Shown here in pieces: positions 1,147-61,949 of a DNA stretch of 64,000 bases. Under the pieces are notes generated by a model that saw nothing but the letters and a program-made list of their open reading frames with translations, had not been told where the DNA came from and did not search any database. The stretch comes from Glandiceps talaboti. Lineage: Eukaryota > Hemichordata > Enteropneusta > Spengelidae. Made by a program: the position numbers and the translations under genes. Position 1 is the stretch's first letter. Every line of letters starts with the position of its first letter. Location of the stretch: the NCBI RefSeq assembly GCF_964340395.1, contig NC_135567.1, forward strand, positions 20,374,001-20,438,000, read 5' to 3'.

Positions 1147-4100
1147 ATTGTTATTACATATGGGAGGAAGTAAGATGTACCAACAAATTAGACAAAATAT
1201 CTCATTCATTTGAAGCGTCGTCAAAAATGATATTACAACAGTTGCAGGAAGACACACTCTCTAGTAAAGGTGGGTATTATTGTTTGTGTTATCATTTCGT
1301 ATGTAACTGTGATGATAATAATAGTAATCTTTATTTATACGAGATAGTTCTTTAAGTATATAAACACTTGTCTCCCAAGAAGTCCAGTGAGGGCCATATC
1401 CCTCATTTGTTCAGTGTTAATGCAGGAGGAAACTGGAGTACCCGGGGAAAACCAGCGTTGTTCGGTAGAGTCAAACTGCATGAAACTCAAGACTGACAGT
1501 TTACAGTCAAAACCTCTCATCTTATCAACATTATCTTGTGTGTATTGGTTAAAATGTTAGTACTCAACTAAATTATTGTTTTTGAAAATTTGTATTTTTT
1601 TCTTTTTTCTGCAGACAAAACTACAATTCTGAATTTTCTATGTCAAACTGGAGCAGTTGATGTACAAGTGGTATCTTCAAATCCAAAAACTGATTCACAA
1701 CAAAGTATGAAGACGCTACCCAGAAAGGAAACTCTTCAATCTATCAATCCACACATTTCTCTAGGAAGCCGGTCACCTGGTAATAACAAAACAAGCAACT
1801 ATTCTGACAGACAAATGATAGTATCTGGTGGATTACTCATTGATGGACATCCAGAAGACAAGTCACCAGGAAATACGAAAGGGAACAACAATATCGGCTC
1901 TCGTCAAAGGCCGATGTTGAATACGAGTAACTCTCATCAAAGGCCGATGTCATCTAATAAGAGTAACAGAGGGCTGTTGTCCGAGGGAGCTTCCAGATCG
2001 GTATCTGAGCGAGCGTCTCGATCGGTATCTGAGGGAGCTTCTCGATCGGTATCTGAGGGAGCGTCTCGACCATTATCAGAGGGTTCTTCTCGATTGTTAC
2101 CTGAGGGAGCTTCTCGTAAAGGTCTTATTCCATCGATTTCACGGTCAATTTGTAATTCATACAAGAGATCTCGGAAATTCAGACTTGGTAAACCTAGGAG
2201 ATTTGGAATGAAACCTGTAACAATCTCAAACTATAATGAAATGGAAGATTCCATTATGATGGATGATTGCATTCTGCTAGAGGACCAGGATGGGCAGAGA
2301 AATGAGCCGATACAAGACCTTGATAGAGAGACACCACCAACAACAAATCAAAACTTAAGTGATGTTCCCGGAAGGTCAATGAACTTTTCAGACTCAGTAC
2401 CAATCCTTGATGCTTACACTGATTCAATTTTCCCAAAGAAAGCGACTGCTACATCTGGGAAACCAAGTGCAATAGCCAATGAAATTGAAGCATCTGAAAG
2501 TACCATTTTTCCATCCACCAATTGGATTGCAGAAGAATCTGTGGCAATAACTCGGGATGCATGCCTAGAAACTGAGCAGAGTGGTAAACCTGGTCATAGT
2601 GGTCAGACGACATTAAAAGGGATTGGAGAACAAACCGTAGAAAAAACATCTCAAGATGTACTATCTAGTGACTCTGCATCAATAACAACTCAGGGTGAAC
2701 CCTCCAATAAAAGTCTCCCATCCCCACAGGGGAAAGAAAGCATCACAGGTGAAATACAGAAGGGAAGGCTGATCAGAGAAGATTGGTTAGGTGTTGAGCA
2801 AATAGAATCACAGGGTAAAGAAAGCATCCCAGGTGAAATAACAAAGGCACGTCTCATCAGAGAAGATTCGTTAGGTGGTGCACAAATAGAACCACAGGGG
2901 AAAGAAAGCATCCCAGGTAAAATAACAAAGGCACGTCTCATCAGAGAAGATTCGTTAGGTGGTGCACAAATAGAACCACAGGGTAAAGAAAGCATCCCAG
3001 GTGAAATAACAAAGGCAACTCTACACAGAGAAGATTCGTTAGGTGTTTCGCAAACAGAATCACATGTTGCTCATTCCCTAGAAGATAAGAAGATTAGCCA
3101 CACAGATAGTACACATCAGGAAGTTCATCATGATAAAGCGAGAGGAACAAGAGCCGACTCTGAAAACCAAGTCCAGATCAAAGAGGAACCCAACTTAAAA
3201 GACGAGTGCAATACTTTCCATGTTGTTGAAGACAGTAATAGTTCACATCACCTGAATTCTAGCGAGACTAGTGAGAATTCAAGTGATTCTGATAGTCGAT
3301 TGAAGTTTGAAGAAGGTATGGCCTATCCAGGTAGAGCGTTTGATGACCTTTCATACTCTCCGAAAGGGAATACCGAATCGTTTCAAGGGAGTGCTGATTT
3401 TATGGAATCGCAATCTTCGTCTCAGAAACCGTCTACCTCGTACCAGTACAACCAAATGAATGCTGCGAATTTTCAGTTTGAAAATAATGATACCAAAATG
3501 GAATCTATGACACACCCTGAAAATGATAATTATTTGTTTGCTGTGAATCAATATTTAGCTCAGAACACTGATGAGACAGCAGAATTTGGCTTTGACGAAT
3601 CGGGCGTTGAATTGTCACATACAGAAGGTGAAAATGCAAAGAAATCGTTCCTTTGTATTGAGTGTGGAAAGAAATTCATGCATAAACGAAGTCTCGTATT
3701 TCACATGCGTATGCATAATGAGAAAAAAATCTATCAATGTAAAATATGCGGTGCGAAAACGCTCTGGCGAAGTAGTTTCCGACGCCATTTAAAATTACAC
3801 ACCGGGGAAGAGTTGTTCAGTTGTCAGTACTGTGGAAAGAACTTCCAAACGAAGACTATTTTGGAATGCCACTTACGAGGGCATACAGGTGAACGACCTT
3901 TTCAGTGCGAAATTTGTAAGAAGTCGTTCCGACAGAAAAATGTTTTGAAGACGCACATGCGAACTCACTCTGGTGAGAGACCGTTTGAATGTCCGTATTG
4001 TAAGAAGAATTACATCAGCAAAGACTATCTAACAAAACATGTCAAGTATCATACTGAAAAGAAATCGTTCCAGTGTGCCGAATGTGGTGCCATATTTGAT

Positions 4101-4196: not shown

Positions 4197-4289
4197 AAGA
4201 CGCATTGTTGGCGCTGATATCATCAGATAAACTCTCATTTGTATCAAGTGTTTAACGGAGTGTACACGTGACAAATCCTTTAGTAGTCT

Positions 4290-5811: not shown

Positions 5812-6001
<190 letters not shown>

Positions 6002-7032: not shown

Positions 7033-11117
<4,085 letters not shown>

Positions 11118-13036: not shown

Positions 13037-16000
13037 ATGAAAGCTGCGAGAAGCATGGCGTTATCTATTTTTAAGAAAATAGATCTAGTGTTCGAAGAGG
13101 ACTTGAACATCCACAGAAACAACAGCGATGTTACTCGACTTCCGGGTCAAGGATTGTCCAATGGCCTTAGTACTGAAGGTATGTTTACAAGTACACCCCC
13201 CCCCCCCACCTCAGCAATTTGTAGTGCAAATGAGGCAAAACAGCGTGACGTTTTCTTTTCGAATCGACTTTCTAAATTTTAACCCGTCTTTTAATGTTGT
13301 GACTTTGCTCTAAGTCTAACGTCATTCATTATAATATATTTGTTAATATTTCTGCATTATTTTGATTTCGATTATTCTTTTCCCCTTTCCCCTAGATTGT
13401 TACTACATTTGGGAAGAAGCCAGATATAACAATAAAATTGATAAATTGAGCCATTCTTTTGAAGAATCGTCTAAAATGATGTTACAGCAGCTTCAAGAAG
13501 ATTCTCTTTGTGAAAAAGGTTTGTCAATTATAATAAACACTCTACTACTAGAAGTGATCATATTTGACAATTTTGCTGTCACTCCTTGAACACCACTTTA
13601 GGAAATAGAGACATTTTCATAAACATTACTATATGTTCTGGAGAGTCGTTTCATGATTTTGTATCACCTACAATTACTTGCAATTTCAGAAAAACATCAA
13701 ATTGATCTTGTGCCTTTATCATGATGTATAGGGTATCTTTGCTATGGGCTATTGCATCATGGGAGTCAGCAGAAATAATTATTCATGGTTGCATAATGAA
13801 TATTCATGACTCCTGAGTGCTTATTCCCTTCAGTGTAAAAATATCTCTCATGAATATTCATCGTTCAAAATCATGAAATGCCCAGTAGTCATATCCATAT
13901 ATTGACCTGGGATAAAATGATCTGATTGGTTTAGAATGGCATTCCTGTATGAAGCGTGATTGGTCGAATACATGAGACATATTTAAATCATGCCATATGG
14001 TCACATAATGAAGCCACAATTAGGTGTTGTCATGGAAACATGACCCTTCACCTTCACTATGATAATTTATGTAACTCATATTCTAATCAAATTTACACTA
14101 GTGTCAGCACACATTATATGTATACTGAGCGTGGCTTAATACAAGTCAGCGTAGACTTGGAAACGATAGCGCTAGTCTACAGGTAGGCTACAATTATGAT
14201 AGTGGAATAGTGTAGTAGTGATAGTCCTTCAAGTCTACAGGTAGACTACAGTTAGGATAGTGGAATAGTGTAGTAGTGTTAGTCCTTCAAGTCTACAGGT
14301 AGGCTATAGTTAGGATAGTGGAATAGTGTAGTAGTGTTAGTCCTTCAAGTCTACAGGTAGGCTATAGTTAGGATAGTGGAATAGTGTAGTAGTGATAGTC
14401 CTTCAAGTCTACAGGTAGACTACAGTTAGGATAGTGGAATAGTGTAGTAGTGATAGTCCTTCAAGTCTATAGGTAGGCTATAGTTAGGATAGTGGAATAG
14501 TGTAGTAGTGATAGTCCTTCAAGTCTACAGGTAGACTACAGTTAGGATAGTGGAATAGTGTAGTAGTGATAGTCCTTCAAGTCTATAGGTAGGCTATAGT
14601 TAGTATAGTGGAATAGTGTAGTAGTGATAGTCCTTCAAGTCTACAGGTAGACTACAGTTAGGATAGTGGAATAGTGTAGTAGTGATAGTCCTTCAAGTCT
14701 ATAGGTAGGCTATAGTTAGGATAGTGGAATAGTGTAGTAGTGTTAGTCCTTCAAGTCTACAGGTAGGCTATAGTTAGGATAGTGGAATAGTGTAGTAGTG
14801 ATAGTCCTTCAAGTCTACAGGTAGACTACAGTTAGGATAGTGAAATAGTGTAGTAGTGATAGTCCTTCAAGTCTACAGGTAGGCTATAGTTAGGATAGTG
14901 GAATAGTGTAGTAGTGATAGTCCTTCAAGTCTACAGGTAGACTACAGTTAGGATAGTGAAATAGTGTAGTAGTGATAGTCCTTCAAGTCTACAGGTAGGC
15001 TATAGTTAGGATAGTGGAATAGTGTAGTAGCGATAGTACTTCTAGTCTACAGGTAGGCTATAGTTAGGATAGTGGAATAGTGTAGTAGTGTTAGTCCTTC
15101 AAGTCTACAGGTAGGCTATAGTTAGGATAGTGGAATAGTGTAGTAGTGATAGTCCTTCAAGTCTACAGGTAGGCTATAGTTAGGATAGTGGAATAGTGTA
15201 GTAGCGATAGTACTTCTAGTCTACAGGTAGGCTATAGTTAGGATAGTGGAATAGTGTAGTAGTGTTAGTCCTTCAAGTCTACAGGTAGGCTATAGTTAGG
15301 ATAGTGGAATAGTGTAGTAGTGTTAGTCCTTCAAGTCTACAGGTAGGCTATAGTTAGGATAGTGGAATAGTGTAGTAGTGTTAGTCCTTCAAGTCTACAG
15401 GTAGGCTATAGTTAGGATAGTGGAATAGTGTAGTAGTGATAGTCCTTCAAGTCTACAGGTAGGCTACAGTTAGGATAGTGGAATAGTGTAGTAGTGATAG
15501 TCCTTCAAGTCTACAGGTAGGCTACAGTTAGGATAGTGGAATAGTGTAGTAGTGATAGTCCTTCAAGTCTACAGGTAGGCTACAGTTAGGATAGTGGAAT
15601 AGTGTAGTAGTGATAGTCCTTCAAGTCTACAGGTAGGCTACAGTTAGGATAGTGGAATAGTGTAGTAGTGATAGTACTTCAAGTCTATAGGTAGGCTATA
15701 GTTAGTACCGGAGTTTTCCGAAAACTAGCCCTGGGCCACTATTCGGAAAATCAGCAAATTCGGAACCACAAAAGAGGAACTAAATAGAAGCTCAGGGCGA
15801 TTATTTGGCAGTCAACACTCAACAGCCATGTGGTTATATCATTACTAATAGGGACATACCAGTTTAGGGACACAACAATTAGGAAGACAAGAATAATCAT
15901 TTCATTTTATAATAATTCAAATATATCAAATGAAACATTTTATTTGCTGTCATTCTATCAGCATTGATTGTATTGTTGCGTCGATGCCTCAAAAATAACC

Positions 16001-19000
16001 ATTACAAATAGAATAGAATTGTCAATTGACTGAAACCAAGCATGTCAACATTATATTTATTATTATAAAGTGGATATTGTACAACTAAAAATAGTGTACG
16101 TCTGAATATACAGATTCATAGGCAAGATTCAATGTTTCACATTAACAGGACTTGGGACCACCAATTTTGTCAGCAGGACCACTGCATTTTTTTCATCACT
16201 GGTCCGGGGACCACCAGTTCACAAAATGATTTGTTCACCCTGGATAAACTTGACATTAGCCTTGTACCGATCGTTAAATCTCCATGAACTCATTTATACA
16301 TAACATTACACATTACTTCAACTCTCACTTGATGTAATTCACTTTGTGTGCACACTCACCATGCAAATTACCCTGACCTATTTTTAGACCCAGTGTGTCG
16401 CATTGACAGTGACGTCTGCTGGTCTCCATGAGTCATCTGCCGACTTGTTGATCGATCTCAGCACAAAGGTATATGTACCTACCTTCACGACCACATTCTC
16501 CTCGTGTAAAAAACATCCATTTTTTATTGGCACTCTAAGTTTATGGGTTTTTGTCAACGGAACATTCGAACTAAATAAAAACTAACGTTACCAATATAAC
16601 AAGGCAAAATTCTTGCCGTAGTGAATCTGAAAAACCCATTAGACGCCCACCCGCCAAATGATCGCCCATGGGCAACTTTTCGGATGGGCTTGTTTTCGGA
16701 AAACTCCGGTATAGTGGAATAGTGTAGTAGCGATAGTACTTCAAGTCTATAGGTAGGCTGTAGTTAGGATAGTGGAATAGTGTAGTAGTGATAGTACTTC
16801 AAGTCTACAGGTAGGCTATAGTTAGGATAGTGGAATAGTGTAGTAGTGTTAGTCCTTCAAGTCTACAGGTAGGCTATAGTTAGGATAGGTGAAATAGTGT
16901 AGTAGTGATAGTCCTTCAAGTCTACAGGTCTACAGTGAGGATAGTGGAATAATGTAGTAGTGACAGTCCTTCTAGTCTACAGGTAGACTACAGTTAGGAT
17001 AGTGGAATAGGTTGCCTAGGATAAAATCTTTTGTATGAAATAAATCTAAAAAGACTTAGAAATCTTACAAGATTGTGAGATTATTTTTTATCTTTTTCAT
17101 CTTTTACAGATAAAACAACAATCCTCAATTTTCTGTATCAGAGTGGAGCTGTCAGTATTAACGTCATCTCAACAAGAAACGGAAATCTTGTTATTCCTGG
17201 TAACCATGGAGACAACATGGTCAATGATAATGAAGTGAACAATGTAGACAACTCAACGCAACAGTGCCTGATTCCACCTCCAGAGGGCAGCATTAGTGGG
17301 AATGATTACCCAGAATACAATAGTCCAGAAGTTGATGTTGAGGAGAATGATCCAGAAAGTACACCTAGAAAATGCAATTATATACGCACATTCACACATG
17401 GAATCATTCCAAAGAGAACAGTTATTAGCAATGTTAAATCTTTACGAACTCGGGAACAAAATGGTGAATATGAATCTGTTGCTAGCTTTGATAATCATGT
17501 TAGGTCAAGGGTTAATGACAGTGATGATCACATGACTAATGAATATTCAACCACAAATTTGCATATGGAGGAGAGAACCAACCTTAAAGATGAATACGAA
17601 ATAGGTACAACGCAGGTATGTGCTTCTAGCTACATTAATTCAAGTACGTGTACAGGCGAAACTGATGATGGTACAAAGTCGTCACAAGCTAAAATGGATT
17701 ACTTCAATGCTGTGTCATCAGAAACCCAGCCTGAAAGTCCAATTATTGTGAAAATAGAAAACGATGTTAGCAGTTGTGCATTCATGGCACGATCATCATC
17801 ACATGACGAGAATGAAGGTCATCTCTCGGAATGCACATCGAACGGTAACGATACTGTGAGGGAAGCGAGTGTGAACACGCAACGACCACAACCAGGATCT
17901 GACGCACTGATTCCACAGACCGACAGTCTATCGTTCGCAACTAATCCATTCTTTGAACGTACAACTGCACCTCTTTTGGAATATGTATCGCACCCAAATG
18001 ATCCACGAACCCCATGCGACAATCTCATTTCAGAACGTACAGCTTGTGACAATCTTATTTCAGAACGTACGCCATGTGATAATTTCGGTCAAAATGTTCG
18101 TATGTTTGGACACCAATATCATCAGGTACTGCAAGAAAATCATAGTGATGACGAAGAATGTGTAAATACAGGAAGGGACCTCTTTCCACATCAAAAGCGA
18201 ATTCGCACTCAACGCATGTTTCAGCCGAAAACAAGAATAAGAAAGGGGAAGCTGCAAAAACAGGATTATGCGAGGAAAGTGTCGCACTTATCTAAACAGG
18301 CGTCAAAAGCGCCAAGTCACGAACTTTTAAATCCAGACAGTTTTGATTTATTAGCGATGAATTCCAGCGGTATTGGGTGTTCAAGTTTACCAGGAAATAG
18401 CGGTATGGAAGTAAATATCATTTCTGGAAGCATGGATACAAACAAAGTGAGACAAGAAGAAAGTATGGGAAGTGCCATGCAATTACATAACCGAGATGAG
18501 GCTAGCTATACTGAAATACAACAGTTGGGTGCTAGTCGAAAACCATCACATACATCGATACGAGAGAAACAAAATCCAAACAAAGAAAAGAGAGGAATCA
18601 TCTCTGATGACAGACCAATCATGTTCTCAGGTCAAAGTTCACAGATACGAGAAAAGCGATACGAGTGCGAGCAGTGTGGAAATAGATTCACACAAAAATT
18701 TAGTCTCAAAGTTCATCGGCGTATCCATACTGGAGAAAAACCGTATCAATGTGAAGAATGCGGTAAACGTCTACAAAATAAGTACAGTTTGCGTTGTCAT
18801 ATGCGAGTACATACGGGCGAGAGGCCATTTGCGTGTAAAGACTGTGGTAAAACGTTTAGCGATCGGAGTAATTATAACAGTCATGCTAAAACACACATGG
18901 TGATACAACCTTATCAGTGTTTCCATTGTGGAGCTGGTTTCAGACGTAAAAAAAGTTTAACGGATCATGTTCTTTTAAAACATAATAACGATTCGTTGAC

Positions 19001-19007
19001 CAGCTGA
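13037..19007 (+). CDS. Gene C: WEEA-module C2H2 zinc-finger protein, four fingers
   Basis: Three exons: 13037-13178, 13396-13518 and 17110-19007, both introns phase 1, 720 residues. Intron 2 is 3591 bp because of satellite and transposon growth. M-K-A-A-R-S-M was chosen as start; the in-frame ATG six codons on (13055) is an alternative. Exon 1 contains K-K-I-D-L-V-F-E-E. Exon 2 begins D-C-Y-Y-I-W-E-E-A. Exon 3 opens D-K-T-T-I-L-N-F-L-Y-Q-S-G, with Tyr where the paralogues have Cys. The linker holds V-K-I-E (17748-17759) and three short repeats around N-L-I-S-E-R-T (about 18018-18085). Four C2H2 fingers occupy about 18660-18985; the first two linkers are canonical T-G-E-K-P/T-G-E-R-P, the third is M-V-I-Q-P, and finger 4 has an extra residue in its H-x-H spacing. 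Inferred: DNA-binding nuclear regulator. The coding end starts a 25-bp tandem repeat. Confidence 0.88.
14175..15705 (+). repeat. 58-bp minisatellite, about 26 units (intron 2 of C)
   Basis: Unit of 58 bp containing GTCTACAGGTAGAC, a 6-bp-arm palindrome with a 2-bp centre, and TAGGATAGTGGAATAGTG. Units differ at linked sites (ACAGGTAGACTACAG or ATAGGTAGGCTATAG). Between about 14400 and 14960 several types alternate, giving a 116-bp higher-order period. The array continues at 16712-17010 beyond an inserted element. Confidence 0.95.
15708..16709. mobile_element. 1002-bp TIR element inserted in the 58-bp satellite, TA target duplication
   Basis: The ends are exact inverted repeats (CCGGAGTTTTCCGAAAAC, 18 bp) flanked by TA on each side. 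The site joins to GTTAGTATAGTGG, a variant found intact elsewhere in the array (near 14601). The TIR contains its own palindrome GTTTTCCGAAAAC. No transposase frame is visible, so this is probably a non-autonomous element. A TA duplication fits Tc1/mariner-type or another TA-targeting superfamily. Confidence 0.88.
16712..17010 (+). repeat. 58-bp minisatellite, right-hand part, about five units
   Basis: Same unit as 14175-15705, more degenerate toward the right end. It stops about 100 bp before the acceptor of exon 3 of gene C. Confidence 0.92.
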
Positions 19008-25049: not shown

Positions 25050-25276
25050 TGTAAAATAAATATTTATAACACGCGTTTTGCACAAAATTGCAGTTGTCGT
25101 TCACTCGGTCTTGTAAGCCACTTGTTTCTTAGTGATTAGCGCCCTCAATTTCCCCAGAATTCATTGTAAATTGACCTGCAGTGACCTCTGTCTTGAATCA
25201 ATTTCCGGGTTTCGAGTGATAATTTAATATTTTCGTAATCCACGGACTACAGGCATTCAGAAGGATACGTGTCAAG
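25050..25276. promoter_or_regulatory. Putative divergent promoter between the AKR gene and gene D
   Basis: The start codons of AKR (minus) and gene D (plus) are 227 bp apart and point away from each other, so both core promoters must fit here unless one has upstream non-coding exons. No TATA box stands out. A bidirectional promoter is inferred from geometry only. Confidence 0.4.
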
Positions 25277-34030: not shown

Positions 34031-39660
<5,630 letters not shown>

Positions 39661-42205: not shown

Positions 42206-42449
42206 TACATGGTAAAGGTTACTTGCTTGATCATAGAGCACTACTGCTTTCTTCGATGTCTGAACAATACGAAAAACATCCCTGATTTACACTTCTACAG
42301 AATACAAAGGAACATTACTATGAGGTGATGATACCCTGTTTGCAGTCTGGAATGGCCTATTGAAAATTTGACCTGTTACAGACTGTGTCACTTCATCAGA
42401 ATCTGTATCATCTCCACTAATTAGTGTATCCTCCAAGCCAATGGGCAAC

Positions 42450-42692
42450 TTACAATCCAGACTGAGCATGCTCAGATGCAAAGGACTATGGGATTTTCTG
42501 TGGTTATCATAATACCTAATCTGGAGCTACTGATGAAATAAACCTCCAACAATGATCAAGGTGACTATGAATTGATCATCTGGGCTTTAAAAACAATGTA
42601 ACCTTATTGTTTGCAATACTATTTGATTAGTATTTATTATCACATTTCCCATGATGCAACATTCAACATGGCGGGTTTGCAAGTTCCTTATT
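42450..42692 (+). mobile_element. MITE family 1, copy 4
   Basis: Runs from CAACTTACAATCCAGACTG to GCGGGTTTGCAAGTTCC, with CTGAGCATGCTCAG inside. Confidence 0.85.
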
Positions 42693-42834
42693 TGATGCAA
42701 CACTGAAATACATGTACATATACAAGAAAAATGAATAAAAATGAAAGATACAATAACACTTGGTGTTAGGATTGTTACCATGGTTACATATGTACTGAAG
42801 CTGCAACTGGACTGAACTAACTTATATCTCAATA

Positions 42835-44580: not shown

Positions 44581-47500
44581 TCAAGTACATGATGAAGTGC
44601 TTGTACAACTTTTCACTGTTTCTGAAATTACAATAGGATTTTGTACATTCATAATATGAAGTATTCCGTTATCTAAACCAACAGTTGTATCCTTTTCTCC
44701 TTTCAGTCGCCGTACTTTCTCACGATGACGTCTCTGTCTTTCCCGCCCAAGTTCACGTATTCTTTGTTTCTGGCTTTCAGTCAATACTTTAGGTGCAGGC
44801 GGTTCACCTTTCCTCTTGGCCTTTATGCTCTCTCTGTATCGTCTCTGTCTTTCTCGATCTTGAGCGCGAATTTTTTGCCGTTGACTTTCAGTTAGTGTTT
44901 GTCTCGCAGTTCGTACAAGTTCAGCTCTTTTTGCTCGATAATCACTCAGTTGTTTATCTCCATGGTGAAGGTTATATGCAAATTTCTGTTTGTCTCCATG
45001 GTGAGGGGCATATGCAAATTTTTGGATCGTTGGTATAATTTCCATTGGGTTTATCAGAGGCATTTTGATTTCACTGGATGGATTTTTATTTGTTGTTGCC
45101 ATGGTATCTGGTGAAGCACCACTTGTTACACCTCCGGACATTTTCTATTGACAAAATAAATGCATAAAATTATTGACTTTATTGAATTTTAAATCATTAA
45201 TTATGATCATAGTTTTACAAAACACAAACAAATATTGTAAACCTAGATATTTTCTCTACTACAAAATTTTGCAAATTTATAGTCTTCAGCAAGTTCTCAA
45301 AGACTAATTTCACTAATTACCAGATTAGTACTTTGCAAGTGCAAGGTGATATTTTGTCACACAGTCACACTGTGTAGATGGCTCCACACTGAGATGTACT
45401 TACCAAATATTGAGGAGTACTTTGCAAGGTGATATTTTGTCCCACAGTTAAACTTTGAGAGTTGAATACATTGTGCAGGTTTCCATCACTAGATGGCGCT
45501 GTTTCATTTACCTTCACAGTCCAGTATGAGGGCGCACGAGTAGCTGCACTCATGCTAGTTGTTGCTTCATCAAATCTATAAACATTTCCACTGCATTCTT
45601 TTTCCATTTCCAAATATTTCTTCCCTAAAATTGTCCTTTGAAGTGGCATACATCTAATGGGACCATCAACAGTTGTTGCATGATTTTCACCCTCCAATGT
45701 TTGTGATTCTGCATCCTGCTCTACCTTTACATGAGTGGTTTGGCCCTGATTAGCATCTTTATGACACTGTATTTTGCTAACTGTCGCTTTATCATCGTTT
45801 CTATCTTCACGATTACTTGAGCTATTGTTTTCACTCGGTTGCTCTCTCATTGGCTGAGTTCTTGACTGCATGCTTGTCATAGCTGCATCTGGTGTATTCT
45901 CCTCTAGATGGCGTTCAGTGCATTTCAAGTTCGCATCCCGGATCATAGACAAGGGCGTAGATATCGTGTCCTGATTCTCGCGTACACACATAGAGATTTC
46001 ACTTTGACGCTCACATGCAGCTATTACACACTGTGGACTCGTACCACACTGATCAGTTTGCGGGCTAGCTGTAACAGTCCCCGATTCCTCATTTCGGCAG
46101 TTTTGCGGTAAAGCGTTCTCTGACTGCGTAAAAATCGCTGGTTTACGGTTTCCAGATTTAGCTGCTGAATGGGCCAAGCTAGTATCCTTGAAACCATTCT
46201 CTGTGATCGCATTTTCTGACGTGACGATTGTTTGAAGACGTACAGACGATGAAACTTTCATTTTAATAATTCCATATTGACAAAGAAAATTCAGCATAGC
46301 CGTTTTATCTGTAATAGAAAGATAATGAAACAAGATAATAGAAAGATAATGAAACAAGATAATAGAAAGATAATGAAACAAGATAATAGAAAGATAATGA
46401 AACAAGATAATAGAAAGATAATGAAACAGGATAATAGAAAGATAATGAAACAAGATAATAGAAAGATAATGAAACAAGATAATAGAAAGATAATGACACA
46501 AGATAATAGAAAGATAATGAAACAAGATAATAGAAAGATAATGAAACAAGATAATAGAAAGATAATGAAACAAGATAACAGAAAGATAATGAAACAAGAT
46601 AATAGAAAGATAATGAAACAAGATAATAGAAAGATAATGAAACAAGATAAAACAGATCTTAGTATACCATGCGCAAGCCAAGTTATTGTCTTTGAACAGA
46701 AAATATGGATTATATACCCTGGTTGTTCCAGGATAACAGGACAATAGCCAATGAATGTTCTTATATTCATGGTCTACGTTTTACAGACTGTACATGAAAG
46801 GGTTTCACATACAACTGCCAACATCAGAGCATGGACAATGGAACCTATTACAAACAGAGAGAGTAAACAAATGAATTGGATTAATAACACTTGGCACAGC
46901 ATGTTGGAAATACAGAGATTTGTATCACATTCCATCATTTGATAAGAACAGTTTTATGCTCATTTTACTTAATAGTTCACATTCACAAACAAACTTCCAG
47001 TTCCCCTGGCATTTCATGTACACATAAAGAGACCATAAAACTGTTCTTATCAAACCATGGTGTGTAATACAAGATCTCTGCTGTTCCAACATACTGTGCC
47101 AAGTGTTGTTAGTCCAATGTGTTTGTTTGCTTTCCCTGTTTGTAACAGGTTCTGTTCGTCCATGGTCTGATGTCGGCAGTTGTAAAAGCATTTAAAAGTT
47201 TTGTATACCTTTTGCCTTGAGTGCTCCACTTCTCATTTGATGACTGATTTGTTGACTGCAAGCATCAAAGTAGTTTACAAGTTTATCTACGGTGTCTGTG
47301 CTAGTAGCTTCGTCCCAAAGACATTCACAATCTGTTAGAACAATAACATTTATTTTAAAATTCATTTATTCATGTATAGTTTGATTGCAGCTTTTAGATT
47401 TTTAAAAATTTTTAAAGTGGTTTATAATTTCTTTACTCATTTTAACAACTGCTTGAAATGTTAATCTTTCACAGTTAAATTGTTGTTGTTGTTGTTGTTG

Positions 47501-47719: not shown

Positions 47720-48326
47720 GCGTGTGTGTGCGTCTGTGTCAGTCATTGCATTGCTTGGATTATTTACCCATATCTTCTGTACAACTGGATCCCACTGGAA
47801 CTTTGTGTGTTATTCATGGTCAAAGAAAGTCAACAATTTATACCACTTTTTATTCGTGTATCTGTTTTATCGAATTTTGTTGACTTAATACTGAAATAAA
47901 CTAAAACATGTTTTGTTGCGTAAACATACAACTCCCCCACAAAGCGTACGACCCGAGGTAACCTCTGTCAAGCCGAGGTTTAAATCATATAAATATTCTG
48001 ACCTCAGGGCTTAGTCCTTCATTTATAAAAAAAAAAATATCTTATAACCTGTCAAACCATGCTTATTATGATCACCAACGACTTTCTGCGTCCATTAACA
48101 TAACTTGTATATAATTACTTTGTCATATTTGTGTCAAATTCATAAACTATAACACTGTGTGCGACTGTACATTACCTTGTGTACTGAGCGTCGGCGATTC
48201 TCCAACAGTAGAGCTTGAGACAAGATCGTGATTTTCAAGCTCACCATTTTCGATGTTCGAAGGTAAAATTAACTGAATTTTTCTCCAGAAGTTAAGCGAG
48301 ACTCCTTCAGAAATATCTACATCCAT
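44581..48326 (-). CDS. Gene G: WEEA-module protein with two basic Arg-rich repeats
   Basis: Four exons: 48176-48326, 47209-47331, 45404-46308 and 44581-45144. Phases are 1, 1, 0 (third donor TTG/GTAAGT), 580 residues. The start M-D-V-D-I-S-E-G was chosen by homology with gene F; 28 in-frame codons upstream (from 48410) are probably not translated. Exon 1 has R-K-I-Q-L-I-L. Exon 2 begins D-C-E-C-L-W-D-E-A. Exon 3 opens D-K-T-A-M-L-N-F-L-C-Q-Y-G. The linker holds V-K-V-E (45719-45730) and, like F, a late Y-W-[TA]-V and H-N-V-F. Exon 4 contains a short duplicated H-H-G-D-K-Q segment and two similar basic units, L-T-E-S-Q-R-Q-K-I-R with D-R-E-R-Q-R-R-Y-R-E, and L-T-E-S-Q-K-Q-R-I-R with G-R-E-R-Q-R-R-H-R-E. 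Inferred: nucleic-acid-binding nuclear protein. The shape resembles a bZIP basic region, but no leucine heptads follow. Confidence 0.85.
46313..46650 (+). repeat. 24-bp satellite, about 14 units, touching exon 3 of G
   Basis: Unit GATAATGAAACAAGATAATA-GAAA. In the sense of gene G it reads pyrimidine-rich (TTTCTATTATCTTG), and the last, mutated unit provides the acceptor TTTCTATTACAG for exon 3. Confidence 0.95.
46810..47184. mobile_element. Foldback element in intron 2 of G
   Basis: The left arm (46811-46957, ACAACTGCCAACATCAGA to GATAAGAACAGTTTTATG) and the right arm (47033-47183) are inverted repeats of about 150 bp around a 75-bp loop. The right arm ends about 25 bp from exon 2. A half copy lies at about 41650-41835. 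Confidence 0.85.
47560..47735 (+). repeat. (TG)n / TATG microsatellite (intron 1 of G)
   Basis: TG-rich run with TATG interruptions. All Val-Cys frames over it are artefacts. Confidence 0.97.
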
Positions 48327-51634: not shown

Positions 51635-54600
51635 TTATTTTAGATGACGTTTCATGTGTGCGACAAACGTTGTTTTCCACGTGAAACTTTGTCCGCATTC
51701 ATCACAATGGAATGGTTTTTCTTTAGTGTGTACCTTCATATGACGTTCCATTACGTGTTTATAATTAAAACATTTCCCACATTGCCCGCACTGAAATAAC
51801 TTGGAACCGAGATGTCGCTGCATGTGATTGGTCAAACTAGATTGCGAGCTGAATATCTTATGACACTTTTCACAATACAGTGGAAATTCACCTGCGTGTA
51901 CTCGCATATGAACATCGTACGTTTCTTGATGGACGAACTTCCGACTACAGAGATTGCATTGGATACATTTTTGTCGTAAGTGGAATTTCCTATGCGTATC
52001 TAGAGACGCTTTCTGACTGAAAGATTTGTCACAAATATCGCATTTATGAGGTTTCTCTGCAAGATGGCGCTGTATGTGTCGCGATAGTGTGATTTCATGC
52101 ATGAAAACCTTTCCACAGTATTCGCAAGTTAATGTTTTCTGCACATGCGTTTCTAGATGCGATACTAGCTGGCTTTCTTCGTTAAAACTAGCACGGCACA
52201 CATGGCACGCAAATATATTGTTCACGTCTTTTGATAAATGCGTTTTTTCGTGTTTACTGCAATCACTCTTTTGATAAAACGTCTTGTCGCACTGTTCGCA
52301 TTTATATGGCCGATCTCCTGAGTGCGACTGCATGTGTACGTTTAACGTCTTTTGTTGCGTAAACCGCGCCCCGCACTCCTGACATTGGAACGGCTTCTCC
52401 CCTGTATGTATCCTCATGTGAACATTAAGAGCACTTTGTGATGTCATACGTTTACCGCAAATTTGACATACAAAGTGTTTGTTTGTTGTGTGTTGTCTCA
52501 TATGTGCGTCAATATTCCATTGCGTACACTCTTTGCTACAGATATGGCATTTAATGGAGTCTGTAGACACACCTATCGATGTACTGCCTGTGTTATAGAA
52601 ATAGATATCCTGTTCTGCAGAAACGGTTTCTTGATTTCCGGGAATTTCTTCTGTATGGATTTCTAACGTTTCCTGTACTATAGATCCTGTGAATGGCTGA
52701 CTTGAATACCCTGCAGGGTCCTGCTGTACAAATTCACTGTCTCTCTGTGTTAGTATTCTTGAAGTGTCTTCCGTGTGTGAACCAGATGGTTGCTGTGTTG
52801 GAGAAATAGTAGTATGCATAACCATTGGTCTTCTTGGTTCACATGCTTGAGAAATAGTCATCGGTATGGCTGATGGTACAGATGTTCCCTGTGTTGAAGT
52901 TTTCAAAGTATCTTGTATCATTGGTCGTCTCAGCAATGATGTTGATTGAGACCCACTAACATCCTGTAGGAGAGATCTTTTCTTGTTTGGGTTTATTAAA
53001 ACACTGTTTTTCTGTAGATGAAATCCCGTATCGTCAGGTTTTTTGAGATCTGAGATTTCTTTCATCAAAGCTTTAATATTCTCCTGAGTGACAGAGTTAG
53101 TGGATTCTACAGATTGAATATCTGGTGTGCTCTGTCTTCTCTCCTGCCCACAGTTTTGGAATCTGCCATTTTCCTGTCTCTGTTGTTGTGACTGGGACTT
53201 TGTGTTTCCTAGACTCCCTGCAGATTTTGATGGGTTATCAGCAGTGTTGGAAGAGGCGTCGGAAGACTTTAGTTGAGTATGTTTTTTCACTAAATCCTGC
53301 AGAAATGGTAAATTCCTGGATTGATCTTCATCACCCGTACTATCTTGTCTCCTAGATTGACCCGGGTATTGTACACTTTCCATAAACAATAATTCACCGT
53401 TATTTTCACTATTGCCATGGCAACTCAAACCCTCAACCTGTGCATTGTTTTCATCTTTCTCTACTTCACCTGTAGATGGCACCCTTTGCATGAAATCATC
53501 ATGAGGAGAGCAATGTTCGCTAACTTCTTTTTCACTGACAATAGAGTCATGTGACTTGTCTATAGAAGGCGCACTTTGGGAGGTCGCAATAAAAACTGTA
53601 TTGCCATACTCGGTGTCCATTTCCTCTTTGATCTTGACACATGAAGCATCTGATGTTTTTCTAACTTTCTGAGGTCTAACAGATGGACTGTTTCTTGCTG
53701 ACGTAGACTCTTCATGGCTGGTGAACACGTTTTGTACATTATTACAAGTCTCCTTTGTGGTGTTCCACATGACTTGTGTGTTTTCTGTATTTTCAGAATC
53801 AGATGTGAATGGCATAACCTGGATATTAATAACACCATATCGATATAGTATATCCATTATTGTAGTTTTATCTGATGATCAAGAAGAAAGAAAGAAATAT
53901 ATATCATATGATTAATTAAAGGGAAACACACTGAGTTTATACGTATTTTGGCATATTTTTGCTGTATATGTAAAAGGTATTTATAGTATTGTATTTACTG
54001 AAGCACAATCACCAATTTGATTTCATGAAATTTGGATAAACATAACAGAATCTCACAATGTGTTAGTTTGGTGTACTTCTAAATATTTGCACCCATGCTG
54101 GCAGTGTTTTCTGCTCTAGTCTCTTCACTTATCTTGTAAAACATGTACATGTTTTCAGTTCAGGAATATGGGACTACAGGTCACAATCCTTGGGCTACCA
54201 ATTTCTGAAACTGGTAGCCCACTAGGACTGTGAAAGAAAAACTTAATTTCAAGCCCTGATCATCAATAGGGAACTTGCAAACCTGCCATGTTTAATGTTG
54301 CATCATGGTAAATGTGATAATAAATACTAATCAATTAGTATTATAAACAATATTGTTATATTGTTAGCAACCACAAATAATCAATTTATAGTCACCCTGA
54401 CCATTGTGGGAGGTTTATTTTATCAGTAGCTCCAGATTAGGTATTACAATAACCACAGATAATCCCATAGTCCTTTGTGTCTGAGCATGCTCAGTCTGGA
54501 TTGCAAGTTCCCTATTGACATGTATGTATCTAACCTACCTTTCTGACTTGGACTATTGTCGTTCAATCGTTGGAATATTTGTTTGATACATTCTTCAAAG

Positions 54601-55221
54601 TTGTTGTGTACTGTGTTGATTTCATTGGTTTTCTTGGCCTCCTCCCACAGATAGGAAAACAAAAAATCTGTAGTTCGGAAAAAATACATGCATACAGTTT
54701 AGTAAAATGCTAATATTGTATGTAATAATGCATTTATATGATTATCCCCGGTTTATATCACATCGTATATATACATGCACAGGTACTCGAATCAATCTGT
54801 ATGATTTTTAAAAAAATATATGTATAGTATTTAGTAAATAATTATTTACTATACATATTTTTTTTTTAAATCATACAGATTGATGCGAGTACCTGTGTAT
54901 ACATGTAATAGCTAGGTTATTTAGTATATAGTAACTCCATGGAAAGTTATACTTCCATGGTAACACACATCAAGTTTGTGTTTTTTGTTTTAAATCAGCC
55001 GACATCGTTCTAGTACTTCCCGTAACACCCCCCCCCCCTCCCCTCCCCCCTCCCTCATATTAAATGGCGGCACAAAAAGTTCATTCACCTTGTGGTCCCT
55101 GTAATCCACGATTACGGTTCAGGTCAGTTGACGATTTCGGGTCGTTTTGATCTGGTGCGACTCTCAACTGAATAGATGGTCTGATGTTGTCAGTCAATCT
55201 GCGAGAAGAGAACACCTCCAT
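51635..55221 (-). CDS. Gene H: WEEA-module C2H2 zinc-finger protein, eleven fingers
   Basis: Three exons: 55089-55221, 54539-54667 and 51635-53871, both introns phase 1, 832 residues. Exon 1 (M-E-V-F-S-S-R-R) has the most divergent segment, P-S-I-Q-L-R-V, and ends G-P-Q-G. Exon 2 is 129 nt, not 123, because of two extra residues before W: D-F-L-F-S-Y-L-W-E-E-A. Exon 3 opens D-K-T-T-I-M-D-I-L-Y-R-Y-G, the weakest match to the family. The linker carries I-K-E-E (53621-53632), M-E-S-V-Q-Y-P-G-Q (about 53353-53388) and a Gln/Ser-rich stretch. Eleven C2H2 fingers fill about 51640-52550. A five-residue-longer spacer separates fingers 4 and 5, so fingers 1-4 and 5-11 may act as two blocks. Inferred: DNA-binding nuclear regulator with the longest finger array in the cluster. 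Confidence 0.88.
54264..54524 (-). mobile_element. MITE family 1, copy 5 (intron 2 of H)
   Basis: This is the best-preserved copy: TCAATAGGGAACTTGCAA on the left and TTGCAAGTTCCCTATTGA on the right are exact inverted repeats of 18 bp. It ends about 15 bp from exon 2 of H. No clear target duplication was found. Confidence 0.9.
54772..54905. repeat. Near-perfect hairpin of about 134 bp (intron 1 of H)
   Basis: CAGGTACTCGAATCAATCTG and the following TATGATTTTTAAAAAAATAT pair with CATACAGATTGATGCGAGTA on the right. The stem is AT-rich and the centre is itself palindromic (AGTAAATAATTATTTACT), so there is almost no loop. Confidence 0.88.
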
Positions 55222-56408: not shown

Positions 56409-59400
56409 ATGTCGGATCTATCGCTTTGTGTTCGTAAACGAATTAGTCTTCGTTTTGACGATCAGTTGGGCGATTATTTGAACAAGCAAGAAAAGGACCA
56501 ACACCATGAATGGTCGAATAGTACGATTGATTTAGGACATCAAGGTGAGATGTTTGTTAATATTGTATTGGGAATTTCCATTCTCGAAATGCCTGGGATC
56601 ATGGCCATTGTAGGGGACGCAGTGTATGGTGTGAATATAACAACAAACTGTCTTCTCAAACAGCCAACTTCACGGTGTAAGCTCTACTACCATGGCTATA
56701 ATTCAGATTGTTTGATAGTAGTTGAAATAAAATACTTCGGTATTTGAAATAGTAACAACCAAGAGTCATCGGTTACAAATACTAAGTTAGAAATGAAACT
56801 GCTTGCACACGGAGTAAGTTCGAATCTAGTCCTGCTTGCATACGGAGTAATCCGGGACTCGATTTTGACAATTGTCCCTCCTACATCTAGAGTCAAGTTT
56901 AGAGTCAAGTCAGCAATATAGACTCGTGCACCGCCTGTAAGCAGGGCTAGTTCGAAGCCAGACTGCAGAGGTGAGAAGTACACGATCAACATCGGCCACA
57001 GACAAACCTAAAGTGGAGTAAGCAATGCCAATAATAAAAATATTTGTCTATTTACAGATTGTTGTCATGTCTGGGAAGAAGCAAAACGAACAGATAAAAT
57101 ATCCCAACTCAGTGAATCATTTACTAAAACAACAGACAAATTACAATGGAGATTAAAAAATAACATGTTGACTGAAAAAGGTAAGATATTTGACAGAAAT
57201 AAGGAAATATTCAGTGTGTATTTTATAAATATACATGTGTACTAAAGATCAATGTATCGTCACTTGAGTAAAAAGCTTATAAACTCAGTTTGTGCCACTT
57301 CAAGTTCAAAAATGTTACTTATTTGGAAAACTAGTTGTGACTTTTGATAAGTGTGTCCTCAAATAATAACTAAATTTTGTTGTTATGAGTCAAAATTATA
57401 AAAACTGGAATTTCTTGTGAGTCACCACATAGTTAGTCTGTAAGGTACGCCGTGACGAGGCACCCTCAAACATCAGGCAGCCCCTAACACTTCCCTGTGA
57501 GAGGAGGCCGGTGAGGGCGTAACGTCACAACGTATCTTACAGTCTACCACATAGTAAGAGATAAGGGAACACTAAATCTTGGTATGTCCCAAAATAGCAC
57601 TATTATGAAATGTGTTGCCACGGGTGGCATGCTCACTTTAGGAAGGTTGCAGCCACTTCTGTTTTGTTATTGTAATCAATTCCGTTTGTGATAGCATGTG
57701 CAGTGTAGTGGCATGCTGCACATGATCTAGCAAAAGGACTTATAAGTTCCTGTCTTAAGAAATACATACCTTACAATGTGTAGAGATATATTAGTTGCAT
57801 TCAGTGTTTTCAAATGAAATAATCCTGAGCAATATTGCAACGATGGTCATACAATCAACTCAGTCTTCCAAAAGTACTTTTGCTGGTGTCATGTGTGGTG
57901 GCACACACTATAGAAGTGACTGTGACCTACCTTGATTGAGCACATCGCCAGCGGCAAAACATACAATAACAAAAATTTGACACATGTATTAATCTTTTGC
58001 ACTGTATTGAGTTACAATCAAGGACTTGGTCTATGTTGTTTCACATTGATTTTTCAAGTAGGAAGCCATGAAAATAAATACCCAATTCTCATCCATATGG
58101 CCACTTTAATTGTGACTTTTTCTGATTTCTTTCCTTCCAGAAAAGTTTACCATAGTTAGTTTCCTGCGTGAGAGTGGAAGTATTCAAATGAAAGTGACAT
58201 CAAATGTACTGATGGAAAACAGGATACACAAAACTACAGGAAGTAGAAATGTGTTGGGTGTAGGAGCTGGGCATGCTGGGAAGGAAAACAATTCAGAAGA
58301 ATCTATTGATGATGGAATCATGAATGATGGTGTGTCTACCTTTGTCTCATCACGTATGCAACAATGTCAGAAACCATCATCCAACCAAAGCAGTTATAGC
58401 ATGGAGCAAGGCCTGAAGCAACTATCCAATCAAAACAACTCTAACAATGATCCAAACCAGAGGCCATCATCCAATGAAAGCATCTGTAGCACAGAGCAAG
58501 ATCAGAGACTGTCATCCAATCAAAGCATCTGTACCACTGACTCTGGGCCAGCCCAAAAATCACCTTCCCATCAAAGCATCATTAGCACAGGACCAGGACA
58601 GAGACTATCATCCAATCAAAGCATCTGTAGCACAGAGCTAGGTGAGGGTGTGTCATCCAATCAAAATGGCTGTATCAGCACTGACTTGGAACCAGATGAT
58701 AAAGAAAGACCACAGCAAGGCACGTATTCGTCTCAGGAGGATAACTCTACACAATATGATGAAAGTAGCAAGAATACGAGTGAAATTGTTATCAAAATGG
58801 AAGCCGAAGATAATATTATATACACTGCCACTGTTGAACCTAACGAATCTGAGGTTGATTTCGTTGAAAGTGTTTCTTTTCCAAGTGGAGATACAAAAAC
58901 AGTTCCTCCTGTTTTACATCATAATAATGCATCTGATTATTTTGTCAATAATGGCAGTGAGAATAAGTCCAACAGTTTCTCAGATGAAACTACTGATTAT
59001 TTCGGCACAAGTGAGAGTCAGTCAAACCGTTTCTCAGATACGGGTACAAAAATGAAAATTGTTGATATACGGACAGTTGCCAATAGTAACACAAACATAT
59101 CAAATGAAGTTACGCAACCTAATGAAACTGATTATACAGCCAATACGCAACAACAAGAAGTTGGAGATAATCAAAGTTACGATAGTCGTAAAATCAACGT
59201 TTCTTACGCAGTCAAACTCCGAAGACTGACCAAGTTATTTATTTGTGATATATGCGGTAAAGGGTTTAGTCAGAAATCGTCCCTCACCCAACATAATATG
59301 ATTCATACGGGTGAAAAACCATATCCCTGCTCGACGTGCGGAAAACATTTTCGACATAGCAATAATCTAATACGTCACATACGCATTCATACTGGTGAAC

Positions 59401-61949
59401 GGCCGTATCAATGTGGTATTTGTGGAAAGCGTTTTAATCAAACGAATATTCTTCGTATTCATCAGAAGAGACACCTAAAAGAAAGGGGAAGATGTGAAAT
59501 AGGAAAGATACGACAGAATGTCGCTGACGAGGGTAGATGTACGATTAGAAATATACTACAGAATGACGCGGAAAGGAGAAGATGTACGATTGGAGATGAA
59601 CAACAGAGTATTACTGAGGTACGACAATCTATGCAAGATATACAGCAATTGCGTAAAAATACTACACAGTTTAGCAGTAATATTGAACTATCTGCAGAAG
59701 AGATACAACAACCAATACGTAATGTACTATCAGACTCAGGGATAGAAAATGATCAACAACTGATGTGGAAAACGCAACAACCAGCGTACAAGATATTTCA
59801 ATCCAATGACAAGAGTCGGGAAATAACGAAGCATACACAAGAGATGGATGATGGTAATAATCGACAATCTACATGGAAGTTGAGACACCAAGGTGAATCA
59901 GTTTGGCAGAAACAGCAACAAAGAAGGGAAATTCAACAGTTGAGAGGCGAAGCACAACAGCAACAAGCACTACAGATGCAGCAACATTCAAGACAGATGC
60001 AGCAAACTGCAACCATATTGCAGCAACAAAGGGGAGAAATGCAGCAAACAGCAGACAAAATGCAAACAACTGTGGTACAGCAACAAACTGAGGAGATGCA
60101 GCTACCAATTGGAGAGGTACAGCAATCTGTAGCCAAGTTGCAGCAACAAACAAGACTACTGCAGCAAACAGGAAATGGAATGCAGCAACAAACACCAGTG
60201 TTTCGGCAACAAAGGGGTAAAGCACAGCTGCACGGTGGGGAACTAATGCAACCAACAGATGAAACATTCATAGAGACAGTCCATCAAAGAGATGAAATAC
60301 AACTTCCAACGGAAAATGCTTCTCTACTCACACCAGTTACAGAATTATATGAATGTCAAAAATGCAACGAAATGTTTGTCAATAAGAACCAGTATGATGA
60401 TCACATGACTCGACACGTAGATCACATGACTCTACACGTAGATGTCCGACCGTTTCAATGTAGTTATTGTTCGATGTCGTTTCGACAACGGAGTACTCTA
60501 AGGGGTCATTTGTTGATTCACACTGGAGAAGAACCGTTTCAGTGTCATTACTGCAATAAGAAATTTAGACACAAGAATAATTTGACGCGTCATATACGAA
60601 TTCATACAGGTGAGAGACCGTACCAGTGTAAGGTATGCGGCAAACGTTTCAACCAATCAAATGTCCTGCACATACACGAGAAGAGACACCACAAAGAGAG
60701 AGAGGGTGGGATGATACGAAGAAATGCAGAGATAAGACAACTCAAAGAGGGACATTTTACGAAGGTGACGGAAGATGCACAAATGAGACAGGGAGGAGAG
60801 GGAGAAAGTGAGACGATACATGAAAATGCAGAGATGAAACACCACAGACTTGGAGAGCTGGGAATGGTAACAGGAAATACAGAGATGGGACACCAAACTG
60901 ATGGAGAACTTGGAATGATAACGGAAAATGCCGAGATAAGACACCACAAACAGGGAACTGTTATGGAAAACACAAAGATGGGACTACAAAGAGTGGGAGA
61001 TCTTGACATGATACCGGAAAAGACACAATCTAGGAATCAAGGAAGATTGGTAGGAATACAACATAGTGAAGTGCAAGTGATACCAAGAGATATGAAATGT
61101 ACTAAAATCAGTGAAAGACAAGATACATTTGAAGGCATGCAACACTTTGAAAGCATAGGTACATCAATGAAAACTCGCAATAAAGGACACTTTGAAGAGA
61201 TACCACAGTATGAGGTGCAAGACATTCAACAGAATTCAGCTAATGTCGAGAATAGCGAGATAAGTGGACAAATAGTACACCAGGAGCAAGAGACAAGAGT
61301 GAGGCTAGCATACAGCAGTGAAACTCAGAACACAGAAATGGACCATGCCGAGAATAACGAGATGAGTGGACAAATAGAACACACGGACCAAGAAACTAGA
61401 GTGAGGCTAGCATACAGCGGTGAAACTCGGACCACAGAAATGGACCATGCCGAGAATAACGAGATGAGTGGACAAATAGAACACACGGACCAAGAAACTA
61501 GAGTGAGGCTAGCATACAGCGGTGAAACTCGGACCACAGAAATGGACCAATCTTTGGTTCTGAATACGTCTGAAATTAATAACACAGATGAGGATGTAAT
61601 TTATGTACACAGAAACATAGATGTAACGAGTCAACAATATCAACAACGATTTGTTTATAATATAGATCAGACAACAAATTCAAAACAAAAGACACTGAAG
61701 AGATATTCATGTAATCTTTGTCCAAAGCGATTCAATTCAAAATCCTGTCTGACGTATCACTCAAGAGTGCATTCTGGGGAGAAGCCGTATAAATGTACGC
61801 AGTGTGAGGCAGCGTTTGCAACTCGAGGTAATCTGGTGCGTCATAAACGAGTTCACACGGGAGAGAAACCGTATACTTGTAATATCTGTCACAGAAGCTT
61901 CAACCAGTCTAGTATATTGAAACGACATCAAAGGGTTCACTCACAGTAG
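56409..61949 (+). CDS. Gene I: WEEA-module C2H2 zinc-finger protein, ten fingers in three clusters
   Basis: Three exons: 56409-56544, 57058-57180 and 58141-61949, both introns phase 1, 1355 residues, the largest of the family. M-S-D-L-S-L-C was chosen over an ATG eight codons upstream because it fits exon 1 of the paralogues. Exon 1 has K-R-I-S-L-R-F-D-D. Exon 2 begins D-C-C-H-V-W-E-E-A. Exon 3 opens E-K-F-T-I-V-S-F-L-R-E-S-G. The linker has Ser-rich repeats around S-S-N-Q-S-I-C (58370-58680), I-K-M-E (58791-58802) and F-V-E-S-V-S-F-P-S-G (58857-58892). Finger clusters: three (about 59245-59475), four (60345-60690) and three (61705-61945). A Gln/Met-rich repeat region (59880-60250) separates the first two, and three 34-residue repeats (61230-61550) precede the last. 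The last two fingers of cluster 1 and of cluster 2 are near copies. Separate clusters may contact distant half-sites; this is inferred. Confidence 0.87.
56827..56949. mobile_element. 123-bp MITE (TAGTCCTGCTTGCA), intron 1 of I
   Basis: TAGTCCTGCTTGCA on the left pairs with TGTAAGCAGGGCTA on the right. The flanks GTTCGAATC and GTTCGAAGC are a 9-bp duplication with one mismatch. Inverted relative to the copy at 48847-48956. Confidence 0.85.
57434..57546. mobile_element. 113-bp MITE (TAGTCTGTAAGGTACG) with CCACATAGT duplication, intron 2 of I
   Basis: The ends TAGTCTGTAAGGTACG and CGTATCTTACAGTCTA are inverted repeats with two differences. CCACATAGT is duplicated exactly at 57425-57433 and 57547-57555. 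The same host repeat at about 620-650 lacks the element and has one copy of the site (TCACATAGT), so it is an empty site. One element end also occurs at about 44503-44525. Confidence 0.9.

Follow-up and report, generated by a model that had tools for sequence, protein, structure and literature searches.

Eight genes in the 64,000-nucleotide window analysed here (Glandiceps talaboti, an enteropneust hemichordate; contig C20, positions 20374001-20438000) share an N-terminal head that is joined to DNA-binding tails of unlike type. A sequence-only reading of the window had reported the same exon 2 and the same start of exon 3 in genes A, B, C, D, F, G, H and I; this sighting is real, but its extent was under-stated. 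The best explanation, to which we give slightly less than an even chance, is that the genes belong to a lineage-expanded DNA-binding family whose portable protein-interaction head resembles KRAB, ZAD and FiNZ in use and not in sequence; by analogy with those systems, the family may act in repression and transposon defence. More tentatively still, we propose that a portable effector head arose within hemichordates, separately from KRAB, ZAD and FiNZ. It would occupy about 70-75 places in one genome, would be re-dealt among neighbours by recombination, and would not be bound to zinc fingers, since it would equally drive a transposase-type DNA-binding domain acquired by capture and an Arg-rich tail that is unclassified; a head-only gene on contig C14 may be near the founder. 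The searched genome comprises 590 Mb in 47 contigs, and gene coordinates below are those of the window unless marked C20.

Pairs of exon 2 and exon 3 were recovered in all eight window genes with matching splice phases. In the window's subfamily (subfamily 1), exon 1 encodes a short alternating-hydrophobic stretch and, after it, a spacer that varies between genes; the 41 residues of exon 2 are predicted to be helical, and exon 3 opens with a sequence like DKTTILNFLCQSGAVSVKV; after the head come a long, fast-changing linker and then a DNA-binding-type tail. The exon-2 acceptor, exon-2 donor and exon-3 acceptor fit phase 1 in all eight genes (AG/A or AG/G; G/GT), and exon 2 is therefore a symmetric 1-1 exon. 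The motifs proposed for the two exons hold strictly in some of the genes only, with the rest deviating: D-C-x-x-[IL]-W-[ED]-E-A fits four of eight (B, C, D and G) and D-K-T-[TA]-I-L-N-F-L-C-Q two of eight (A and D), with H and I furthest from the latter. When upstream frames were compared, six genes (B, C, D, F, G and I) proved to have an exon 1 inside the window, in every case ending at a candidate phase-1 donor. A profile of nine exon 1s, whose expectation values (E) refer to a small library, placed exon 1 of gene A outside the window at C20:20373453-20373627 (L039:9453-9626; E 2.6e-4) and matched that of gene J (E 8.2e-5); weaker candidates lie in L040 (E 0.028 and 0.38) and L043 (E 0.025, the L043 match at 2.5e-8 being the profile member itself). 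The NCBI model of gene A, LOC144449933, joins the same exon 1 to exons 2 and 3, and that of the C14 gene also joins all three; these models agree with the three-exon splicing first proposed, and no sign was seen of exons 1 and 2 being left unjoined to exon 3. The parts of the eight genes are as follows.

1147..1269, forward strand: gene A exon 2 (head-module helix); same residues in NCBI LOC144449933
1615..4196, forward strand: gene A exon 3, with module end, linker with psi-K-x-E and 6 C2H2 fingers
7033..7165, forward strand: gene B exon 1 (module start), resembling exon 1 of D, F and G; donor GAAG/GTAAAC, phase 1
8218..8340, forward strand: gene B exon 2
9526..11117, forward strand: gene B exon 3, with module end, linker and CENP-B/Abp1-type double helix-turn-helix (about 10671-11080; Pfam, PDB, Foldseek)
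13037..13178, forward strand: gene C exon 1; donor GAAG/GTATGT
13396..13518, forward strand: gene C exon 2
17110..19007, forward strand: gene C exon 3, with module end, linker and 4 C2H2 fingers
25277..25469, forward strand: gene D exon 1; donor CAAG/GTAGGG
25964..26086, forward strand: gene D exon 2
26728..29213, forward strand: gene D exon 3, with module end, linker and 5 C2H2 fingers
39483..39660, reverse strand: gene F exon 1; donor CAAG/GTAAGA
38125..38247, reverse strand: gene F exon 2
35305..36905, reverse strand: gene F exon 3, with module end and linker, fingerless; phase-0 donor ATG/GTGAGT
34031..34627, reverse strand: putative gene F exon 4, the Arg-rich repeat tail (splice inferred)
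48176..48326, reverse strand: gene G exon 1; donor CAAG/GTAATG
47209..47331, reverse strand: gene G exon 2
45404..46308, reverse strand: gene G exon 3, with module end and linker; phase-0 donor TTG/GTAAGT
44581..45144, reverse strand: putative gene G exon 4, the Arg-rich repeat tail (splice inferred)
54539..54667, reverse strand: gene H exon 2 (DFLFSYLWEEA.., without the DC start)
51635..53871, reverse strand: gene H exon 3, with module end, linker and C2H2 array (10 fingers by one pattern, 11 by a looser one)
56409..56544, forward strand: gene I exon 1; donor CAAG/GTGAGA
57058..57180, forward strand: gene I exon 2
58141..61949, forward strand: gene I exon 3, with module end, linker and C2H2 fingers in three groups, 10 in total

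Chance resemblance is excluded by the genome-wide recurrence of exon 2. A consensus search of the whole genome (52 candidates, 44 matches at E<=10) gave 25 exon-2 places that were kept at E<=0.02, with whole-genome E-values from 2.6e-15 to 0.02; 24 of these are on C20, in groups of 14 at 20.37-20.48 Mb, six at 14.2-14.8 Mb, two at 19.91-19.92 Mb and two at 8.4 Mb, and one is on C14. The eight-gene cluster originally described is real but forms only part of a cluster at C20:20.371-20.477 Mb that holds 14 exon-2 places. Purifying selection acts on exon 2 in all four pairs that were measurable, the ratios of nonsynonymous to synonymous substitution being 0.12 (A/J), 0.17 (C/J), 0.37 (L/M) and 0.39 (T/U); the A/C pair is saturated. 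At L023 (C20:19.92 Mb), the exon-3 start 'FTDKSVLVNFL' is tandemly repeated about five times together with its splice acceptor region.

A second subfamily opens exon 3 with the divergent DKSIIIDCLCQHGLVTLDEV in several of the genome's strongest C2H2 loci. Searching the genome with this sequence returned 57 matches, which reduce to 50 places on 14 contigs once seven further pieces of the same loci are dropped; 46 places reach E<=0.001, and the weakest (E 0.14) has an internal stop. Exon 2 of this subfamily lies upstream of exon 3 in seven of 11 loci inspected (L002, L046, L058-L062), as found with a profile that included L046. When profiles of subfamily 1 alone are applied to subfamily 2, E-values are 0.0004-0.9 for exon 2 and 0.15 or worse for exon 3, and the single-exon similarity is therefore weak. 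Joined exon 2+3 profiles of subfamily 1 (21 sequences) and subfamily 2 (7 sequences) match each other with 98.2% probability (E 3.1e-14; 25% identity over 55 columns), and on this profile evidence the two subfamilies are homologous in exons 2-3. The NCBI models P0002 (C12) and P0003 (C8) join the same two subfamily-2 exons behind parts of unrelated genes, fusing them to a TNF-domain protein and an NB-ARC/TPR protein; these two models are perhaps annotation chimeras. When 65 loci were built from the 150 best finger matches, 30 had a subfamily-2-type exon 3 within 4.5 kb upstream. Five of the remaining 35 were inspected over 5 kb each and showed no head, and together these counts rule it out as a universal head of the worm's finger genes. 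Four of those five loci (L065 on C4, L066 on C12, L068 on C5 and L069 on C17) begin with a different head, of the type 'MExIIVKQEDS' or similar, which contains several psi-K-x-E sites.

The description of the module as unrecognised has stood up to profile searches, which placed the head in no described family. No Pfam family reached its cut-off with 11 spliced modules at E<=1, one module searched against NCBIfam gave nothing convincing, and neither the exon-2 profile nor the C14 protein had a convincing relative in the PDB. The best sub-threshold Pfam match was Sec7, for three of the 11 modules at E<=1 (best 0.0071) and over about a quarter of the profile; a Sec7-like fold was rejected at 18.2 and 16.2 bits against a cut-off of 22, over only positions 3-48 and 3-51 of 183. 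A head of the COMPASS/SATB type, as described for ambulacrarians (PMC3784565), was also set aside, having no Pfam support. A protein-database search with the exon-3 head of gene D returned nothing (5 candidates) and missed gene D itself, whereas the C14 gene (1 match among 1821 candidates, E<=1) and a composite query (3 matches among 1504 candidates, E<=10) retrieved proteins of Glandiceps and of no other organism; that the head was not found in other species is weak evidence, because a match must share 5-residue words with the query and Glandiceps talaboti itself seems to be only partly represented in the database. No description of this head was found in the literature searched, whose coverage is without most subscription journals, and 'zinc' has 0 occurrences in the accessible part of the main text of the hemichordate genomes paper PMC11175523. 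As for structure, W, F, L and G are conserved in the head alignments (exon 2 and exon 3), in which there is no invariant Cys. Exon 2, folded alone from the eight window sequences, is predicted to form one helix with a mean predicted local distance difference test score (pLDDT) of 88.4 and a predicted template-modelling score of 0.55, and on our own reading, rather than from a prediction, the alternating hydrophobics of exon 1 and of the exon-3 end (e.g. NITLSLSKQISVCF, GAVSVKV) suggest strands.

The arrangement of a conserved head with variable C2H2 tails in clustered genes is shared with the KRAB and SCAN families of vertebrates and the ZAD family of insects, of which ZAD has four zinc-binding cysteines, while KRAB binds TRIM28 and recruits H3K9 methylation. 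Unlike these, the acorn-worm head matched neither the KRAB nor the SCAN profile (11 modules at E<=1; 4 at E<=10) nor zf-AD, and the lack of an invariant Cys rules out a ZAD-type zinc fold. FiNZ of cyprinid fish is, in the available part of PMC10547256, a 28-residue, single-exon, Glu-rich module before C2H2 arrays, and a zebrafish family of this type silences transposons. Going by that account, our head is like FiNZ in standing at the N-terminus ahead of C2H2 arrays, in having no known relatives and in belonging to a large lineage-specific family, and unlike it in having three exons and a 41-residue helical exon and in also heading non-zinc-finger tails; the two are set apart by description, no FiNZ sequence having been compared. 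Large head-plus-finger families are already known in tetrapods, insects and cyprinid fish, and an apparently unrelated head in an invertebrate deuterostome would, if true, mean that such systems arise repeatedly.

Three unlike tail types had been reported, and all three are found (C2H2 fingers, a CENP-B-type helix-turn-helix (HTH) and Arg-rich repeats), with the correction that the Arg-rich repeats of F and G lie on a separate, putative exon 4. Tandem zf-C2H2 matches exceed the Pfam cut-off in A, C, D and H, and gene I has fingers by pattern only. In gene B the head's exon-3 part and a double HTH share one uninterrupted 541-codon frame. Its tail matches HTH_Tnp_Tc5 in Pfam at 51.2 bits (cut-off 22.2; E 1.2e-12), its first HTH unit is matched only below threshold (HTH_32, HTH_ABP1_N), and Pfam gave no CENP-B_N and no DDE_1 match in this gene. 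Compared by sequence with the PDB, the tail is closest to CENP-B (1hlv, E 8e-7) and Abp1 (1iuf, E 1.2e-6). By fold, Foldseek also finds 1hlv (E 1.2e-4), with template-modelling scores of 0.35-0.41 and a root-mean-square deviation of 12.6, so that the whole tail superposes poorly on this structure; no alignment was used in modelling the tail (mean pLDDT 66.9), and the Foldseek matches support the assignment and do not prove it. With two HTH units and HTH_Tnp_Tc5, the tail is, as far as its sequence goes, a CENP-B-type DNA-binding domain. It is like CENP-B/Abp1 and the Tigger/jerky-type transposases in its HTH_Tnp_Tc5 match and best structures, and unlike them in lacking CENP-B_N and DDE matches. 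A Tc5/pogo-type transposase was rejected for gene B, which is without the DDE_1 catalytic domain; the same genome holds, at L055 on C5, an open 549-codon frame with CENP-B_N, HTH_Tnp_Tc5 and DDE_1, presumably a Tigger/jerky-type transposase. Fusions of host genes with transposases are a known class. Gene B is like them in joining a host head to a transposase-type DNA-binding domain of the CENP-B/Abp1 class, and unlike them in having no DDE domain and in that the genome's four other matches to its tail are only 29-33% identical; an F-box fusion is one reported example of the class (PMC12062965). A recent capture from a transposon still present is not supported at this level of identity, which indicates that the capture was old or that its source is gone.

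Genes F and G are fingerless: their exon 3 closes with a phase-0 donor, and the Arg-rich repeats lie on a further exon that starts at a phase-0 acceptor. The two Arg-rich tails are related (27% identical), that of gene F had no Pfam match, and a search of the genome for the source of this tail returned only itself at E<=0.001 (2 candidates). It is improbable, in our view, that tail exchange is only apparent, with B, F and G either decaying or wrongly modelled and their heads surviving beside unrelated exons. This possibility draws on the join to exon 4 in F and G, which is deduced from phase-0 splice sites, on gene H having no recognisable exon 1, and on the fact that the protein searches, none of which queried B, F or G directly, brought up no NCBI model for these three genes. 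It is opposed by the single 541-codon open frame of gene B, by the open exons, phase-0 donors and related tails of F and G, and by the exon 1 and exon 2 frames of all three genes, which are still open. In a tree of exon 2+3 (63 columns, ultrafast bootstrap), B groups with D (86) and F with G (94), and a wider group joins A, C, J, B and D (70). Since B groups with the C2H2 gene D, the fingers of gene B were probably replaced by the double HTH. The analogous head-plus-tail system with a replaced tail that had been envisaged is thus retained in its undescribed head, clustered genes and unlike tails, with one probable replacement, and this probable tail replacement is what is unusual against the KRAB/ZAD/FiNZ arrangement. 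If true, a DNA-binding end that is swapped while the head is kept would separate the head's role from that of the zinc fingers.

Heads also seem to have moved among genes L (C20:20445.5 kb), M (20460.5 kb) and O (20469.5 kb), which lie outside the window. L and M are 91.7% identical over 133 bp at exon 2 and 94.7% over 281 bp around the exon-3 start, a block that begins in the intron and extends about 190 bp past the head into the linker; their finger regions are 70.7% identical over 273 bp. Synonymous distances between them are 0.13-0.18 for the head pieces (short pieces), 1.0 for the linker and 2.9 for the fingers. L and O match at 95.1% over a 185-bp block that covers exon 2 and reaches about 56 bp past its donor into the intron, followed by 193 bp of intron at 88.6%, and have no exon-3 match at E<=1e-5. 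M and O fall in between: they are 86.4% identical at exon 2 (199 bp) and 80.5% identical where exon 3 starts (87 bp). Because the head blocks are similar while the tails have diverged, L, M and O seem to be mosaics in which similar heads were exchanged or converted between genes with long-diverged tails. It is unlikely that the high identity reflects instead constraint on the DNA, such as splicing or codon signals, with no recombination of heads: exon 2 and its splice sites are indeed the most constrained part and only three genes were compared, but the blocks shared by L/O and L/M run into unconstrained sequence, namely intron past the exon-2 donor and linker beyond the head. These neighbours open head-tail recombination to direct testing.

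The explanation we lean to assigns a function to each part. The head would be a protein-interaction module for dimerisation and/or co-regulator recruitment, the psi-K-x-E site in the window's subfamily may be SUMOylated and help to recruit silencing factors, and the tail would select the DNA target; the proteins, putatively nuclear and DNA-binding, would work in the mode of KRAB-, ZAD- or FiNZ-zinc-finger genes, most likely as repressors with quickly changing targets, transposons included. The psi-K-x-E motif is present in 15 of 15 subfamily-1 exon 3s (eight in the window and seven outside, one of them incomplete), where it commonly takes the form [VI]K[VIM]E with acidic residues after it, and in four of six more that are ended by the locus edge (19 of 21 in total). 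When each linker was shuffled, the number of sites was significant only in the C14 gene (p 0.030) and the incomplete one (p 0.048); the case for the motif lies in its recurrence and context. The C14 gene (L044:1738-5076) encodes a full three-exon head, an AT-hook-like stretch (Pfam AT_hook, E 0.072) and three psi-K-x-E sites before its stop; the protein spliced from three exons is identical over 282/282 residues to the NCBI uncharacterized protein LOC144444709, and the gene may be close to the founder of the family. Diversification of the fingers was compared between contact and other variable positions, which average 2.37 and 1.34 bits in subfamily 2 (81 fingers).

Several results weigh against this explanation. 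In subfamily 1, to which the window genes belong, the finger contact positions show only a slight excess (3.39 vs 2.87 bits, 56 fingers). Two of the six edge-ended subfamily-1 linkers have no psi-K-x-E in the part examined, a single site is common by chance in a long linker (0.05-1.03 expected per linker), and only one of 13 subfamily-2 linkers examined has the motif, within finger-like sequence. The last count rules out the motif as part of the head everywhere and would limit a SUMO-type mechanism, if real, to the window's subfamily rather than the head in general. No convincing exon 1 was found in the inspected subfamily-2 loci, the exon-1 profile search found none for gene H, and the C14 protein has a head yet no fingers. 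A plausible alternative, which we rate as somewhat doubtful, is that the head serves for homodimerisation or multimerisation, as SCAN and ZAD do, and that the proteins carrying it are architectural or developmental regulators not mainly engaged in silencing or transposon defence. The helical exon 2 with its conserved W, F, L and G, the failure of Pfam to find a known repressor domain in the head, the weak contact-residue diversification in the window's own subfamily and the near-complete absence of psi-K-x-E from subfamily-2 linkers are all in its favour, whereas psi-K-x-E in 19 of the 21 subfamily-1 exon 3s examined speaks for the repressor explanation, as does the expansion of finger genes into large clusters, a pattern that accompanies transposon load in other animals (PMC10547256, in the part available).

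Several further features of the window were noted. The long intron of gene C holds an array of about 58-bp units (14174-15705 and 16711-17010), and the presumed gene F intron after exon 3 (34760-35305) contains repeats of the kind GTAAGTTAAAGGGTCTGAGTA, similar to the region of the exon-3 donor. A dispersed element of about 250 bp occurs at 31630-31884, 34950-35206, 42439-42697 and 54261-54517, its copies being 87-92% identical, and a reverse-strand frame inside the cluster at about 24414-25100 resembles part of an aldo-keto reductase. Elsewhere in the assembly, contig C40 is mitochondrial (51222 bases) and is likely a tandem assembly of a circular genome, with three COX1 copies 15435 bp apart. 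On this contig TGA encodes Trp and COX1 is without AAA and without AGA/AGG, a codon use that fits hemichordates; GC content is 53% in the 10 kb counted, and the transfer RNAs before COX1 are Asn, Trp (reported as SeC, anticodon tca), Ala and Tyr.

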